Virus record (IMG/VR): IMGVR_UViG_3300010412_000103
Span: 1 to 20,100 of that record
Direction: 5' to 3' (one strand)
DNA length: 20,100 bases
Source of the DNA: a virus
Of the stretch, positions 14,226 to 20,100 are shown piece by piece. Position 1 is the stretch's first letter. Each line of letters starts with the position of its first letter. A program made the translations under genes and the position numbers. The notes under the pieces are model-generated. The model saw nothing but the letters and a program-made list of their open reading frames with translations, had not been told where the DNA came from and made no database searches.

Positions 14226-17138
14226 TTAAACCCTTTTTTTAGCAACAACTTTAATCCTGACATAAGCACTATACACAACACCCAATGCCGGTGAACCTTG
14301 ATATGTAGCATTATTTCCCGCTAATCCATTAGCACCAGAAATCAAATATAACTGACCGCCTCCATTACCATAAGTGAATTCTGCAAGTGTTGCTGTTAGT
14401 CCATAAACGGTGGTTCCTGATGAGAAATATGCCCATCTAGGATTAACCCATCTTGAATAAAATTGATTATAGTATTGTGCCTCTACGGATAGGATATCAT
14501 AGTTTTCTAGGCTATCGCCATTTGGTGTATTTATTGCATAAAGACCATCTGACCATGTATATCCCTGATAGAAAAATGTTGATGAAGATGCAGAAGTCTC
14601 AGGAAGCGGTGTTGATGGGTTATATGGGTCAACATAAAACACAAATGGTTCATTAGTATCCCTAAGTATTTTCCTTATTTCTCCTAGTGGAGAGAATACA
14701 ACAATATCACTATTTTTAATGATTCCACCTGTACTCAACAGTGGAGCTGGCATCCCTGATACAACAAATGCCTTTCCTTCTCGTTCTGATGGATATGAGT
14801 TAATGTCAACTTCACCCGATGGCTGTGGTGCGCCAAAGAACTGGGTAAAACCGGCAGGGAACATTGGAGTTGCTGGCATTGATACGCTGGCTGCACCTGC
14901 ACTCTCAGACCAAATCAACATACCAACCCTATTAATCGTACTAAGGTCAATAGAATATTGTAATGAATAGCTGTCTATTAATGTTCCATTTTTATATAGT
15001 TTCACTAATCCATTTCCGGTATTAGTAACAGATATACCTATTTCATCCGTTGGGGAAAATGGGAAAAATGCTGGTATAGATGTTTCCGCAGATGAATCAA
15101 CAGCGGGAGGAACAACATTACCCAGTTTATAGCTTAATGGGATTTCGGGAACCTCATCTTGTCCGTCCTGCCATGATGTCGCTGCACCGAAACCATAGGC
15201 TGCACCATAAACGTAGTATATTCCTAAATTACCTTCGGTTTCTGAATAGATTCTGAGTGTGTTTGAATTCAATTGAACAGCATACCACAAACCGGCGTAA
15301 ATATCATTAAAATCCTGCCTGAAGTCTCCCCATGTGGTGTCTGGGAACATTGGGTTTCCGGTATAAGTATGATAAAATCCTCCAGCAAGAGATGAATATG
15401 CCTGTACTGTTACCTGTCCGGTAATAAAGGTTCCATTATTAATATCGCTCAAGTTAGTAAATTGTATATCAATATAGGCATGAGTTGCAGCAACTGCATC
15501 CTGTTGTTGAATAAGCAAACCGAGACCATTGGTTGGAACACCAGCATTATCAATAAACCCAAACATTACATACTCTAGGTTTTGGGAAATCATATTCTGT
15601 ATATTGACGTTAAAATAGGTTCCTTGCTCTGTCGATGATATCGGAGAGATTGGGGCAGACCAAGCAAGCTGTTTGTTACTTTCAGTTACAGTTAATGAGT
15701 TTGATGTCAGTGTTCCGTATGATGAACTACCTGAAATAATTTGACTTTCAATTAATGCTGCTGGCTCAGGTGGTGTTAAATACTCATCGGGAGTCCAGTC
15801 ATTATCTTCCACAAAGCGATAATCTTCAAATGAAAATTTTCCAGCCAAAGCCCCAACAGAATCAAATACAACATAGTCTCCATTGGATAGAAGCCCAACA
15901 GTAGATATAAGTGGATATGCCATATTATTAATCATGTAAACGGAATTTTCCCTGTCTGTTGGGTATGATGTTTCATCAACCAAACCATTTGGTAAGGCAA
16001 TTTCTGTAACAATGCTTGTACCCGCTACAACCGGTATTCCATAACCTACAGGATTTGTTATTATTTTATAATTGATAGATTCATTTGATATAGAAATCGT
16101 CGCCATTTTTTCTATTGCTGGTAAATCCAGATAGGTTGAGCCTGATATCAAGAGAACATAGTTTGAACCAACTAACCTGTACAATTCGGTTGTAACTGTT
16201 GAATCGCCATTATTCTCAACAACAAATGAATAAACTGCCTGTGGGTCATTTTCTGAAAGTGGGATTGCAGTAAAACCAATAATACCTTCATCCACCTTTC
16301 CTATGCCATTCACGGTTCTTGGTAGTGAAATGAGTTCGAAATTATCTCCATTGGTAAATGACCCTATGAAAGTAATTTCATCATTTATGGTCAAATTATT
16401 ATCCGGTGAAAGGGCTATTGTATAATCAACACCGTATATCAATGGGGAAGTTTTTGATGGGTCTTGTGTGATATTGTATACTGCTACAGTATCAACATTA
16501 TATACACTTTGGAAAATTTGTCTGGTTTCATTATTTTGAACCACATTAAATAGTTCACTATTTCCTCCAGAATCATGACTATGAGCAGCAAATAAATTTC
16601 TCCCAATGCCAGTAAATGCTTCTTCGGGAAAGTTGACATTTTCAGCAAAGCCTATATAAATATATGAAAATTGAGATGTTGCTGGTACTCCACCAACAGG
16701 AAACGTATAGTAGATTGCCTTTCTTTCCCCAACAGGAAAATAAGGTGCCCCACTGGATTTTACCCTTGGATAACCGGTAATATATGGATAATCTGTAACG
16801 ATATCATCATAATTGGTAAGATGATTGACCGTTAATTCTCTGACTTCACCCGTTGCACCAATTGGTGTTTGTGTTGGTGTGATATTCTGTTCAATGGGTT
16901 CCCATAAATCTTTTGCAAAACCGCCAGAACCGCCTCCACCACCAGAAACAGTTTCCCATGAACCTGATGTTGCCCTGTGGCTTAAGCCAGTATCCTCTGC
17001 AATGAATATGGCACCTTCTTCTATACCCACCGGAGTCAATGGAAGAGTTGAACCACTGATGATGAGTGTTGAGCCTGAACCGTCTATGTGCTGGATTCGG
17101 ATGCCGGTCTTCGGGATTTTAAATGCTTGTTCTGTCAT
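14226..17138 (-). CDS. Large tail-fibre or adhesin-type protein with duplicated module
   Basis: This 970-residue protein has no enzyme motif and reads as a beta-rich virion surface protein: many Thr, Ser, Gly, Asn and Tyr, few Cys, no signal peptide. The N-terminal 75 residues (FKIPKTGIRIQHIDGSGSTL and so on) end in a flexible linker GGGGGSGG, suggesting a particle-binding head followed by a shaft or receptor-binding part. A segment near residue 387 (VDETSYPTDRENSVYMINNM) returns near 777 (VDINSYPSEREGKAFVVSGM), each followed by PL-x-ST-x-G and a D-x-VVF element, showing an internal duplication. Likely role: host recognition; this is inferred from composition, size, late promoter and the small neighbour. 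The gene lies opposite to all others and looks more AT-rich. The C-terminus ends in RIKVVAKKRV. Confidence 0.75.
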   Translation of the reverse strand: MTEQAFKIPKTGIRIQHIDGSGSTLIISGSTLPLTPVGIEEGAIFIAEDTGLSHRATSGSWETVSGGGGGSGGFAKDLWEPIEQNITPTQTPIGATGEVRELTVNHLTNYDDIVTDYPYITGYPRVKSSGAPYFPVGERKAIYYTFPVGGVPATSQFSYIYIGFAENVNFPEEAFTGIGRNLFAAHSHDSGGNSELFNVVQNNETRQIFQSVYNVDTVAVYNITQDPSKTSPLIYGVDYTIALSPDNNLTINDEITFIGSFTNGDNFELISLPRTVNGIGKVDEGIIGFTAIPLSENDPQAVYSFVVENNGDSTVTTELYRLVGSNYVLLISGSTYLDLPAIEKMATISISNESINYKIITNPVGYGIPVVAGTSIVTEIALPNGLVDETSYPTDRENSVYMINNMAYPLISTVGLLSNGDYVVFDSVGALAGKFSFEDYRFVEDNDWTPDEYLTPPEPAALIESQIISGSSSYGTLTSNSLTVTESNKQLAWSAPISPISSTEQGTYFNVNIQNMISQNLEYVMFGFIDNAGVPTNGLGLLIQQQDAVAATHAYIDIQFTNLSDINNGTFITGQVTVQAYSSLAGGFYHTYTGNPMFPDTTWGDFRQDFNDIYAGLWYAVQLNSNTLRIYSETEGNLGIYYVYGAAYGFGAATSWQDGQDEVPEIPLSYKLGNVVPPAVDSSAETSIPAFFPFSPTDEIGISVTNTGNGLVKLYKNGTLIDSYSLQYSIDLSTINRVGMLIWSESAGAASVSMPATPMFPAGFTQFFGAPQPSGEVDINSYPSEREGKAFVVSGMPAPLLSTGGIIKNSDIVVFSPLGEIRKILRDTNEPFVFYVDPYNPSTPLPETSASSSTFFYQGYTWSDGLYAINTPNGDSLENYDILSVEAQYYNQFYSRWVNPRWAYFSSGTTVYGLTATLAEFTYGNGGGQLYLISGANGLAGNNATYQGSPALGVVYSAYVRIKVVAKKRV
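14664..14810 (-). repeat. Protein-level repeat, copy 2, in the tail-fibre gene
   Basis: Codes for VDINSYPSEREGKAFVVSGM, then PAPLLSTGGIIKNSDIVVFSPLGE (residues about 777-825). It shares with copy 1 the pattern VD-x-x-SYP-x-(D/E)-RE, M-x-x-PL-x-ST-x-G and D-x-VVF-x-x-x-G. The DNA of the two copies has diverged, so the duplication is old. Confidence 0.72.
15838..15980 (-). repeat. Protein-level repeat, copy 1, in the tail-fibre gene
   Basis: Codes for VDETSYPTDRENSVYMINNM, then AYPLISTVGLLSNGDYVVFDSVGA (residues about 387-434). The distance to copy 2 is 390 residues, so the repeated unit may be as large as 350-390 residues, with the conserved part at its end. Confidence 0.72.
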
Positions 17139-17185: not shown

Positions 17186-17193
17186 TATTTATA
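17186..17193 (-). promoter_or_regulatory. T4-type late promoter for the tail-fibre unit
   Basis: On the minus strand the sequence is TATAAATA, the T4 late consensus. T4 geometry places the box at -13 to -6, giving a start near 17180 and a leader of about 42 nt before the fibre ATG. A variant GATAAATA lies just downstream on the same strand (17182-17175). This promoter class is read by the gp55 sigma factor with gp33 and the gp45 clamp. Confidence 0.72.
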
Positions 17194-17197
17194 AATA
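17190..17197 (+). promoter_or_regulatory. T4-type late promoter for the right-hand gene cassette
   Basis: TATAAATA on the + strand, overlapping the minus-strand box by four bases so that 17186-17197 is the perfect palindrome TATTTATAAATA. The expected start near 17203 gives a 32-nt leader before the ATG at 17235. I find no other exact TATAAATA in the window on either strand. Confidence 0.72.
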
Positions 17198-17234: not shown

Positions 17235-18443
17235 ATGAAATCGTTCAATCAAGTTATAAAAGAAAATACCTATCTTGCCGAAGGTGGAAATGTCATCGTC
17301 AATGACAAGAAGGGTAATGTTATCCCCGCCGAAAAGATTGACATGGTGAAATTCAACAGAACCACATTTGTCAATGACATGACCAATGCATTCCTGAAGC
17401 TGAATGACATGTTCGAAGCGATTTATGGATATCCCATCTGGAAAAACAAGTCTGTACTAACCACAGGCATGGCGTTTAATGGAAGTTCCGATGTCATGTT
17501 CTCCAAGCAGGTCAGTGACGAGGACTTTATGAAAGTCAAACCGAAGGTCGGTGACATAGACCTTACTGTTCCTGATGAAATGAAAAGACCGCTATGGGAA
17601 TTCCTGAAAAAGATTCAGGGCAAGAAAATTACACCCAATGTGACCTATGTCGGAAACAACCGACCAAACTATTCACCAAGCAATGCCCAGATAAACTCTG
17701 TCTTTGAATATCGCCTTGGAAAAGAAAAGGTACATGCACAGGTTGACTTTGAATTGACACCGTATATGAATAACCTGCCATCGGAGTTCACAAAGTTTGC
17801 CCACAGTTCGGCATGGAACGACATGAGTGCCGGAATCAAGGGGGTGCATCACAAGTATCTAATGCGAGCCATGATAGGTGGTTCATCTATCCGCGAAGAT
17901 ATCGTGATTGCAACAAACACATCGACCCCAGAAAAGTTCAAGCAGTCGATGAACAAGACCAATCTGGTGCCATACCTGTTGAAGTTCTCTGTCGACAGAG
18001 GTGTTCGTGTTGCGTATCAGGCACAGTTTCTGCCAAGCGGAAAGCCATGGATGGAAGGCGGAAAACATGTCTACAAGGAAACCCCGACATCCGATTCGAC
18101 CTATGAACAGAACCTGACCAATATCTACAAGATGGTCTTTGGTGAACCCCAGAGCAAGGCAGACATTCAGGAGATGTGGTCATTCCTCGGATTGATTGAC
18201 CTTATCAAGAAACACCACACCAAGAAGCAAATTCAAGCCACACACGACAAGCTGATTGAACAGTATTGGGGAAGAGGTTCACAGGGATTCGAAAGAAACA
18301 ATCCAGAACTGGACAAACAAATCAAGTTAGCTGCCTATAATTTATTCATCAAGGCGTTTCCATTTGTAAAAAATGAAGCCAAACAGAAGAAGATGATGGA
18401 TGAATTCTATAAGAACTACCGTGTCACGGAGATAAACGTATAA
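17235..18443 (+). CDS. Nucleotidyltransferase-like protein with capsid-targeting-type leader
   Basis: This 402-residue protein begins MKSFNQVIKE|N, a leader ending in I-x-E like the T4 capsid-targeting sequence MKTYQEFIAE that the gp21 prohead protease removes. The body shows a pattern of the polymerase-beta-type nucleotidyltransferase fold: FNGSSD (GS at 83-84), VGDIDLTVP (D107, D109) and a third acid in AQVDFEL (D171). The gap between GS and DxD is longer than usual, so the assignment is tentative. GVHHKYLMRAMIGG (about 203-216) and a helical C-terminus follow. The SD is GGGG about 8 nt before the ATG. First gene after the late promoter; its stop overlaps the next start (TAATG). Substrate unknown; host tRNA, nucleotides or proteins are possible. 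Confidence 0.72.
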   Translation: MKSFNQVIKENTYLAEGGNVIVNDKKGNVIPAEKIDMVKFNRTTFVNDMTNAFLKLNDMFEAIYGYPIWKNKSVLTTGMAFNGSSDVMFSKQVSDEDFMKVKPKVGDIDLTVPDEMKRPLWEFLKKIQGKKITPNVTYVGNNRPNYSPSNAQINSVFEYRLGKEKVHAQVDFELTPYMNNLPSEFTKFAHSSAWNDMSAGIKGVHHKYLMRAMIGGSSIREDIVIATNTSTPEKFKQSMNKTNLVPYLLKFSVDRGVRVAYQAQFLPSGKPWMEGGKHVYKETPTSDSTYEQNLTNIYKMVFGEPQSKADIQEMWSFLGLIDLIKKHHTKKQIQATHDKLIEQYWGRGSQGFERNNPELDKQIKLAAYNLFIKAFPFVKNEAKQKKMMDEFYKNYRVTEINV

Positions 18444-19432
18444 TGATAAAATTCAAAGACTTGACAGAAAGCCTAAGCCTGAATGAATCAAAGACTCTTG
18501 ATGACATCAAGTCTATGTTGAAGAAGGCTATGAAACTGAAGGAAAGTGACTTCAAGGTCATCTCGAACAATAGGATTGCTGTCCTGACCGACAACAATCG
18601 CATCAAGACCATGGAACAAATTGCCAACCTTCTGGTTCCTATCGGATGGAAATGGAATCGAACCACAAAAATTTCATCCATTGGTCATTTGGAACTTGAG
18701 GAAGCAGTTATTCTCGTCAAACCAAAATCCAAACAGGGAAGCCTGTCTGCTGGTCTTGATAATGAAGCAAGGCTTGTTGGTGGAATAAACCAAGCCATCA
18801 TCCTGAATGGTGGTTCACTGGATGTCGTGTTTTCTTCGGGAAGAAACAAGGCACACTATACCGGAATAAAGAAGGCTGTTCAGGTTGGTTCAGATACTGC
18901 CAATAGAAAGAAGGCAGACCTTTTGCTTATTACTGAAAAAGGAAAGCAAATTCCAATAAGCCTGAAAAAAGACAATGCCAATATGTGGGAATCTGCTGAT
19001 AACCTATGGGGATTGACTGCCAACAAATTCATCAACAAACTGGTTCAGGAAAACAAAATCAAACTGGAACGCCAGAATGCTGGTCACTTCAAGATATCGC
19101 CTCAATTTGCTGTTAAGGCATCGCCGACCGAAGTCAAGGAAATTGTCTTTGGTTCAGATATCCTTTCCGGAAAGGGTTGCGTTATTGAGAGAACTTTTGT
19201 CGAAAAAGACTTTGAGTACGTTGCAGCAAAGAACCAAGTGGTCATTCAATGTTCGGCTATCATAAAATCTGTAGATGATATTCCAGCCAGTGCAACACCA
19301 TGGTTCCTTATCAGGAATGATTCAAGCCGACACAATCCGGCAATAGGCTATACCGGATTAAGGGTGTTGGCTGTCTATCAGGAAAGGATAAATCAAACTG
19401 TATTGAAAGTCCATCGCAATCTGGTGAAATAA
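18443..19432 (+). CDS. PD-(D/E)xK-like nuclease candidate with capsid-targeting-type leader
   Basis: This 329-residue protein starts MIKFKDLTE|SLSLNE|S, offering two (L/I)-x-E cleavage sites (after residues 9 and 15). Residues 16-95 form a small leading domain. From residue 100 the order GLDNEARLV (E108), NRKKADLLLI (D159) and IPISLKKDN (S173, K175) fits the PD-(D/E)xK nuclease core with E in the first helix and an SxK in place of ExK, as in some restriction enzymes. If real, it would cut DNA inside the host, or act on the host genome or incoming competitors. The C-terminal third is beta-rich and unassigned. GGAG lies 11 nt before the ATG, which overlaps the previous stop. A catalytically inactive relative cannot be excluded. 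Confidence 0.7.
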   Translation: MIKFKDLTESLSLNESKTLDDIKSMLKKAMKLKESDFKVISNNRIAVLTDNNRIKTMEQIANLLVPIGWKWNRTTKISSIGHLELEEAVILVKPKSKQGSLSAGLDNEARLVGGINQAIILNGGSLDVVFSSGRNKAHYTGIKKAVQVGSDTANRKKADLLLITEKGKQIPISLKKDNANMWESADNLWGLTANKFINKLVQENKIKLERQNAGHFKISPQFAVKASPTEVKEIVFGSDILSGKGCVIERTFVEKDFEYVAAKNQVVIQCSAIIKSVDDIPASATPWFLIRNDSSRHNPAIGYTGLRVLAVYQERINQTVLKVHRNLVK

Positions 19433-19983
19433 TGAAAAACTTTAAATCATTTACGCAACTCATTGAAAGCGTTAAACTTGCAACGATGGATGACCTGAAA
19501 AAGCACAAGGGCGTATATATATTTGTGATGGGTGGCAGTGCATCCGGAAAGAACTATTGGGCTGAGAAACATCTAGGGAACCTTAAACTGGTCGACACCG
19601 ATGCCGTGGTGAAAGACATTATGAAGCCCGAAGATGACCCAAGGAAACTGGTGAGTACCGCCATTGCCATCGTGAACAAGGAGATTGACAAATCCATTGC
19701 CAAGGGTATCAGTTTTGTTCAGACAGGAACCGGAGCCAACTACAAAGGTCTGTATAACAGGCTTGCGAGGGCGAAGGAAGCTGGCTATACGACCGCACTT
19801 GTATTGATAGATACTGACCCACAGTTAGCCATCAAACGTAATGCCGAGCGCGTAGCCGCAGGTGGGCATGGGGCAACACTGGAACCAGAAAAGATAATCA
19901 GAACAAACCGTTACGCCAAAGAGAACTATATACTCTTATTGAAATCCGGTATAGTTGACATTACCATGAAGGTTAAGCAATGA
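19432..19983 (+). CDS. Zeta-toxin-like P-loop kinase with capsid-targeting-type leader
   Basis: This 183-residue protein starts MKNFKSFTQLIE|SVK, with an L-x-E cleavage-type site after residue 12. The body is a small P-loop kinase: Walker A GGSASGKN at residues 34-41, an acidic pair LVDTDAVV (D55, D57), FVQTGTGANYKG (95-106), AGYTTALVLIDTDP (117-130) and a basic lid with R136, R140 and GGHGATLEPEKI (144-155). This arrangement resembles zeta toxins and related polynucleotide-kinase-like proteins; zeta toxins phosphorylate UDP-GlcNAc. Walker A ends in N rather than S/T, which is unusual and could reduce metal binding. No antitoxin gene is seen beside it. It overlaps both neighbours (TAATG before, ATGA after). 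Confidence 0.78.
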   Translation: MKNFKSFTQLIESVKLATMDDLKKHKGVYIFVMGGSASGKNYWAEKHLGNLKLVDTDAVVKDIMKPEDDPRKLVSTAIAIVNKEIDKSIAKGISFVQTGTGANYKGLYNRLARAKEAGYTTALVLIDTDPQLAIKRNAERVAAGGHGATLEPEKIIRTNRYAKENYILLLKSGIVDITMKVKQ

Positions 19984-20100
19984 AGTCATTCAGTCAGTAT
20001 CTTGTTGAATCCGTCAAGGATGATATGATGGATATATCTATCAAGGATATATCAAAGGATTTCGACACCACCAAAAAAATCCAGAAGTTGCTTGATACCA
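19980..20100 (+). CDS. Fourth leader-bearing gene, cut by the right edge
   Basis: Only 40 residues are visible: MKSFSQYLVE|SVKDDMMDIS followed by IKDISKDFDTTKKIQKLLDT. The leader ends in L-x-E after residue 10, the closest of the four to the T4 sequence MKTYQEFIAE. The start overlaps the kinase stop as ATGA. The body cannot be assigned from so little sequence. Confidence 0.8.
   Translation, partial: MKSFSQYLVESVKDDMMDISIKDISKDFDTTKKIQKLLDT

Follow-up and report, generated by a model that had tools for sequence, protein, structure and literature searches.

The last four genes of a 20,100-base virus record, analysed here as a whole (the window) and representing a fragment of a T4-like phage, form a cassette (P1 to P4; 17235-20100, plus strand) that lies downstream of a long minus-strand open reading frame (ORF; 14226-17138) and reaches the contig end. 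Our results make it very likely that P1-P4 are internal (ejection) proteins, which would be made late, packaged in the head by means of a short N-terminal tag, cut by the prohead protease gp21 and injected into the next host. This interpretation is drawn from the modular nature of the leader, a protease-site border between leader and body, a late-type promoter, the occurrence of gp21 in relatives and the presence of leader-bearing proteins in virions of related cyanophages, all of which support the head packaging that an earlier sequence-only reading had proposed. From these lines of evidence, we infer that the source phage packages, cleaves and injects the proteins, as well as their activities as enzymes and their roles. 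Capsid-targeting sequences were already known from the T4 internal proteins, and a review has suggested them to be a general device of T4-like phages (PMC9026906); in the literature searched, the terms "capsid targeting" and "cyanophage" occurred together only in that review. What is new is the enzyme cassette, the border rule seen among P1 relatives and the agreement of leaders with published virion proteomes.

Leaders of the cassette proteins

The ORFs, starts and leaders were all found as the sequence-only reading had described them, i.e., four consecutive coupled genes beginning with similar short leaders (Table 1). Neighbouring genes overlap by 1-4 bases, which makes translational coupling likely, and every leader carries F at position 4 and V, L, F or Y at position 7. 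A strict leader pattern, M-[KILRMNAV]-x-[FY]-x2-[FYIVLM]-x(0-8)-[LIV]-x-E, was composed after viewing these leaders, so that any p-value within the window is post hoc, and was fixed before the tests on outside genomes. Of the 27 window genes, it occurs in 4, and these are precisely the cassette genes P1-P4. In T4, the pattern finds IPII and IPIII, plus lysozyme as one false positive; cassette-free phages (Moby, G006, G013 and CP220; codes with G or L are our handles for records and loci) have 0-1 strict matches per 137-262 genes, and the internal methionines pooled from nine phage sequences have 7 in 5739 (~0.1%). With a looser pattern, the gene directly after P2 relatives in IMG/VR loci bears a leader in 52% of cases vs 1.9% with shuffled N-termini. 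The internal-methionine and shuffle controls rule out a start-codon or composition artefact. Leader presence as a whole-genome trait was also rejected, since the P1 of L031 is leaderless and its neighbours bear leaders.

Leader genes may also stand in longer runs, as in L016, where five are consecutive (P1, P3 and a P4 relative, together with two others).

The leader/body border in the P1 family

A single-protein search of IMG/VR with P1 gave no match; a profile search found relatives in 72 IMG/VR loci, as well as in Vibrio, Campylobacter and Xanthomonas phages and in Stenotrophomonas phage Moby. All 46 distinct leader-bearing relatives have [LIV]xE directly before GGN, with leaders that vary in length and sequence (L051, L063 and L080, which the script misparsed, were put right by visual inspection), and the 14 distinct leaderless sequences start M|GGN. 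Among the 45 tabulated leaders of the family, which are up to 17 residues long, position -1 is E in 45 and position -3 is L in 26, I in 15 and V in 4; E makes up 5.7% of interior residues. The M|GGN starts of leaderless relatives, taken with the [LIV]xE|GGN border, indicate that P1 would be cut at E16|G17. The (L/I)xE leaders of the sequence-only reading stand, and its mature P1 starting at N11 is probably wrong; a cut after E10 (IKE|N) was set aside for E16 (LAE|GGN) on account of the family border. For P2, E15|S16 (LNE) is the best fit among the sites that had been put forward; for P3 and P4, the expected cuts are read from their own sequences. Methionine aminopeptidase is expected to remove the initiator methionine from MGGN, and thus this route and border cleavage would converge on the same mature GGN N-terminus.

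A quick maximum-likelihood tree built from the P1 bodies shows 9 switches of leader state, of which at least 6 fall on well supported branches; among these is the sister pair of L016, with a leader, and L024, without. Leaderless P2 relatives begin at about residue 17 of the window P2 or later, a border less sharp than that of P1, lying within 1-2 residues of LNE15. The P2 alignment that worked comprised five sequences, one of seven being too diverse. The leader thus appears to be a removable module on P1 and P2 bodies. The P1 family can be regarded as a natural experiment, in which one body occurs with or without a leader and the join always falls at a protease site, a rule that is directly testable.

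Four P1 relatives (L045, L047, L052 and L064) are extended to 1068-1758 amino acids (aa); some of these carry a nucleotidylyltransferase-like or a GP88 domain, and all four retain the [LIV]xE|GGN start.

Leaders in published cyanophage virion proteomes

The strict pattern matches 3 of the 219 coding sequences (CDS) of cyanophage S-CREM2, namely the SAM hydrolase gp6, the APH-like kinase gp14 and the cytidylyltransferase gp154, and all three are listed in its virion proteome (PMC10665884), an enrichment with a Fisher p=0.013 when every CDS is counted and p=0.002 when the count is restricted to non-structural CDS. S-SCSM1 has one match among its annotated starts, that of gene 91 (NMNAT; MKSFLQFLKE), and the record marks its product as a virion protein, so that 4/4 strict-pattern CDS of both cyanophages together are detected in virions. 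The looser pattern is less specific, since it also matches the clamp-loader gp33 in S-CREM2 and undetected genes in S-SCSM1, and this test was therefore restricted to the strict one. Looser leaders are found on the further S-CREM2 virion proteins gp12 (Cas9-like; LRFASFMAE-A), gp13 (MKDLHSFLTE) and gp136 (MQTFSMFFSE). Virion detection is also listed for the cytidylyltransferase of S-SZBM1 (MRFRQFIIE-A; matched by length and name; PMC9146016) and for the citidylyltransferase T4-GC190 of S-SM1 (PMC3037559).

These cyanophage proteins (cytidylyltransferase/NMNAT, kinase, SAM hydrolase and Cas9-like proteins of S-CREM2, S-SCSM1 and S-SZBM1) have been detected in virions by mass spectrometry, as we propose for the cassette, and several carry the same leader type (MKNFSSFLTE, VKRFDAFLTE, MKDFDSFLEE, MKSFLQFLKE, MRFRQFIIE). 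Some of their genes follow gp41 in a cassette whose placement resembles that of P1-P4; for instance, S-SCSM1 genes 89-93 (L238, 7358-12836) form a contiguous block in that position, all marked as virion proteins, with a strict leader only on gene 91. No P1 or P2 relative turned up in the part of S-SCSM1 that was searched. A leader is not mentioned in the passages of the cyanophage papers considered here; the leader rule would account for earlier unexplained enzymes in cyanophage virions.

In S-CREM2 (L232, 3837-13331), a SAM hydrolase, a Cas9-like nuclease, a small protein and an APH-like kinase, all virion proteins, have leader-like N-termini. The start of the Cas9-like gene may be annotated too far upstream, as LRFASFMAE-A falls at residues 17-25.

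Prohead protease and late-type promoter

A gp21-type protease (PF03420) is present in 15 of the 19 whole records with P1 relatives. Three of the four records without gp21 also lack the gp23 major capsid gene, indicating that the head module is missing from those records; the fourth, G005, has a weak capsid match only. At the presumed cut site of the major capsid protein, several relatives keep the motif [LV]xE.

The late promoter that had been claimed ahead of the cassette is matched by an exact T4-type octamer, TATAAATA, located 37 bases before the first cassette ATG, and the window contains 3 copies of it vs 0.68 expected. Two opposite-strand octamers overlap at 17186-17197 (TATTTATAAATA), and this single spot could therefore drive both the cassette and the minus-strand ORF.

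Predicted functions of the cassette proteins

The bodies behind the leaders differ, as anticipated: structure comparison confirms nucleotidyltransferase (NTase)-like and nuclease-like folds for P1 and P2, and Pfam a P-loop kinase for P3. P1 matches phrog_19290, a family of unknown function, with E=1.4e-66. Its AlphaFold2 model has a pLDDT (predicted local distance difference test) of 91, and the closest solved folds in a Foldseek search are of family X, namely DNA polymerase lambda (E=8e-4, probability 1.0, template modelling (TM) score only 0.29). G83 S84, D107, D109, D171 and E173 are invariant in 25 sequences; P1 thus combines the NTase fold with the G-S and D-x-D ... D/E motif of the pol-beta/pol-X superfamily.

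P2 matches phrog_12709 (E=7e-56), and its model has a pLDDT of 90.5. Among the predicted viral structures of BFVD, the type II restriction enzyme CviJI (E=7e-9, TM 0.48) and Nt.CviQII (E=3e-7) follow its own phage family. E108, D159 and S173-x-K175 are invariant in 33 sequences, so that P2 resembles CviJI in fold and in the conserved acidic/lysine set, and it is a predicted DNA-cleaving enzyme. No partner methyltransferase gene for P2 was seen in the window.

P3 passes the Pfam cut-off for AAA_33 (E=2e-11), also matches zeta toxin (E=8e-7) and has the Walker A motif GGSASGKNYW; its match to the kinase domain of bacterial Pnkp (TIGR04075, E=1e-4) is far below the curated cut-off for a polynucleotide kinase (PNK). 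We therefore file it, weakly, as a PNK-like P-loop kinase. A single-protein search of IMG/VR with P3 found nothing, and tblastn found no relative among annotated phages; homologues are present in L016, with a leader (MSFIGLLTE|S), and in L010, where the protein starts MADITKLDK and is leaderless. Moreover, in L010 (4006-5697), a P3-like kinase and a P1-like NTase share one ORF, with MGGN at the join. This fusion, together with the composition of phrog_12709, in which a P2-like part is joined to a region weakly matching a KIDG-motif, ligase-like protein, hints at functional links.

P4 is the sole window ORF found by a profile of homologues (E=7e-4), and is probably an RNA-ligase-like enzyme, on weaker evidence than the assignments of P1-P3. 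Its L010 homologue narrowly misses the curated cut-off of RNA_ligase (E=1e-5), phrog_27149 consists of an RNA-ligase-like domain fused to a nucleotidylyltransferase domain, and homologues carry KTDG/KIDG, a KxDG nucleotidyl-lysine motif whose position in P4 would fall beyond the contig end. Some of these homologues have a leader (MNFRNYLIE, MSFRTYILNE) and others are leaderless. Sequence searches of the PDB with P1, P2 and P3 gave no match, and PADLOC matched no defence-system model to P1-P3 or a P4 relative.

Comparison with known packaged proteins

T4 Alt, a packaged ADP-ribosyltransferase processed by gp21, is likewise an enzyme, of a class that differs from those of the cassette, and its propeptide is not of the MKxF type. 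The T4 internal proteins IPI, IPII and IPIII (MKTYQEFIAE; IPI, MKTFKEFTSTTTPVSTITE) share with the cassette proteins a 10-19-residue leader, hydrophobic positions 4 and 7, the (L/I)xE border and late expression; the agreement thus covers leader, border site and late promoter, the last as predicted from its octamer. In the T4 capsid-targeting sequence, residues 4 and 7 serve targeting and 8 and 10 processing, with cleavage after L/I-x-E (PMC9026906). In contrast to the T4 proteins, which are small and non-enzymatic, the window cargo comprises several enzymes in one coupled cassette, and its type of leader occurs on some homologous bodies and is missing from others. IPI, which inhibits GmrSD, and IPIII, which acts in the cytoplasm once a new host is infected, are precedents for packaged counter-defence proteins (PMC9391042). 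Restriction endonucleases of chloroviruses, CviJI among them, share the fold of P2 at ~13% identity and belong to a different virus lineage, the activity of P2 being a prediction; chlorovirus restriction enzymes travel in the virion and are considered the cause of host DNA degradation within 5 min (PMC7019647), a precedent for a packaged endonuclease. The idea of T4 capsid targeting would be widened beyond small anti-restriction proteins to include sets of enzymes acting on nucleic acids in marine, Campylobacter and uncultured phages, and the leader would provide a rule, readable from the genome, for proteins that a T4-like phage probably packs and injects.

Proposed mechanism and alternative explanations

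We propose that P1-P4 would be transcribed late and that their leaders, amphipathic N-terminal segments with hydrophobic positions 4 and 7, would dock into the prohead scaffold core. A gp21-type prohead protease would then cut after (L/I)xE and free the mature enzymes (P1 starting GGN), which would stay inside the DNA-filled head and enter the next host with the genome, ahead of any phage gene expression. The cargo would amount to a set of enzymes for processing nucleic acids, made up of a polymerase-X-like nucleotidyltransferase, a CviJI-like endonuclease, a PNK-like P-loop enzyme and probably an RNA-ligase-like enzyme. Its most likely job would be early cutting of host DNA and processing or sealing of nucleic-acid ends in the first minutes after entry, and such early processing could also blunt host defences. 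As a tentative extension, which we hold to be possible and rather doubtful, the virion-delivered kit might break host DNA and repair nucleic acids of the phage, either its genome ends or tRNAs, ahead of phage transcription, with the prohead protease as a safety catch, P1, with its near-invariant GGN N-terminus, becoming active only after its leader is cut off in the prohead.

Several points weigh against packaging and injection. The gp21 of the source phage would lie outside the window. S-SCSM1 genes 89, 90, 92 and 93 encode virion proteins without a recognisable leader, and the leader is therefore not the sole route into the virion. The cyanophage authors caution that co-purification is possible (PMC10665884, PMC9602691), and in a Campylobacter relative, the masses of most virion proteins reportedly fit unprocessed forms (PMC3322345). 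The P1 model is confident from about residue 20 and poor at residues 1-16, and because its alignment was trimmed at GGN, this low confidence is partly built in and lends little weight to a separate leader. Further, the fold search of the PDB with P2 gave no significant match.

The leaders might also be capsid-targeting and the enzymes act within the head while it is being assembled, for example in trimming of ends, packaging or completion of the head, instead of in the next cell. Nucleases, ligases and kinases could help to package the genome or to repair its ends; T4 IPIII has an effect on the assembly of heads (PMC9026906), and in relatives the cassette has Hoc-like and baseplate genes nearby. 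However, the T4 cargo with capsid-targeting sequences studied so far, IPI and IPIII, is ejected (PMC9391042), and leader loss in close relatives disfavours an essential assembly role, so that we consider this explanation unlikely. Short amphipathic N-termini can have other uses, and the shared one could be a tag for tail, baseplate, membrane or replication complex, with LxE being incidental. This is very improbable given the invariable [LIV]xE border of P1 relatives, the co-occurring gp21-type protease and the finding that the leader-matching proteins of S-CREM2 are non-structural enzymes in virions. Finally, a likeness due to chance or to a general bias at the start codons of phage genes (MK and then hydrophobic residues) would be compatible with a short pattern composed with the four leaders in view, but is extremely improbable and is already contradicted by the counts in cassette-free phages and at internal methionines; the strong positional enrichment beside P2 relatives also speaks against it, as does the P1 border rule, which is independent of the pattern.

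Cassette features and additional observations

Table 1. Coordinates of the cassette genes, their leaders and the late promoter octamers in the window.
Feature	Position	Strand	Description
Late promoter octamer TATAAATA	17190-17197	+	T4-type, exact match; function presumed from T4
Second TATAAATA copy	17186-17193	-	overlaps plus-strand copy
P1	17235..18443	+	402 aa; pol-beta/pol-X superfamily nucleotidyltransferase-like; phrog_19290
P1 leader	17235..17282	+	MKSFNQVIKENTYLAE then GGN; expected cut E16|G17
P2	18443..19432	+	329 aa; CviJI-like (PD-(D/E)xK type) endonuclease-like; N-terminal part of phrog_12709
P2 leader	18443..18487	+	MIKFKDLTESLSLNE then SK; expected cut E15|S16; E9|S10 also possible
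P3	19432..19983	+	183 aa; P-loop kinase, polynucleotide-kinase-like
P3 leader	19432..19467	+	MKNFKSFTQLIE then SV; expected cut E12|S13
P4	19980..20100	+	N-terminal 40 aa only (contig end); probable phrog_27149 member
P4 leader	19980..20009	+	MKSFSQYLVE then SV; expected cut E10|S11

Other window genes, by reading of their translations, are presumably those of an AAA ATPase, a dNMP-kinase-like protein, clamp, clamp-loader, a RegA-like protein, polymerase, UvsX and a gp41-type protein; the polymerase shares ~47% identity with cyanophage polymerases. The minus-strand ORF before the cassette encodes 970 aa, had no Pfam, NCBIfam or significant PHROG match, and resembles a virion surface or fibre-type protein.

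Two further sets of leader genes were observed. DUF6267 proteins (L199, 6864-8117, and relatives; HLEHLED start) have leaders in uncultured phages and lack them in several cyanophages. G010 (57529-60013) carries three paralogues in tandem, each 258-266 aa long and starting MKTF(K/I)Q(Y/F)IQEAS, which may represent an expanded group of internal proteins.

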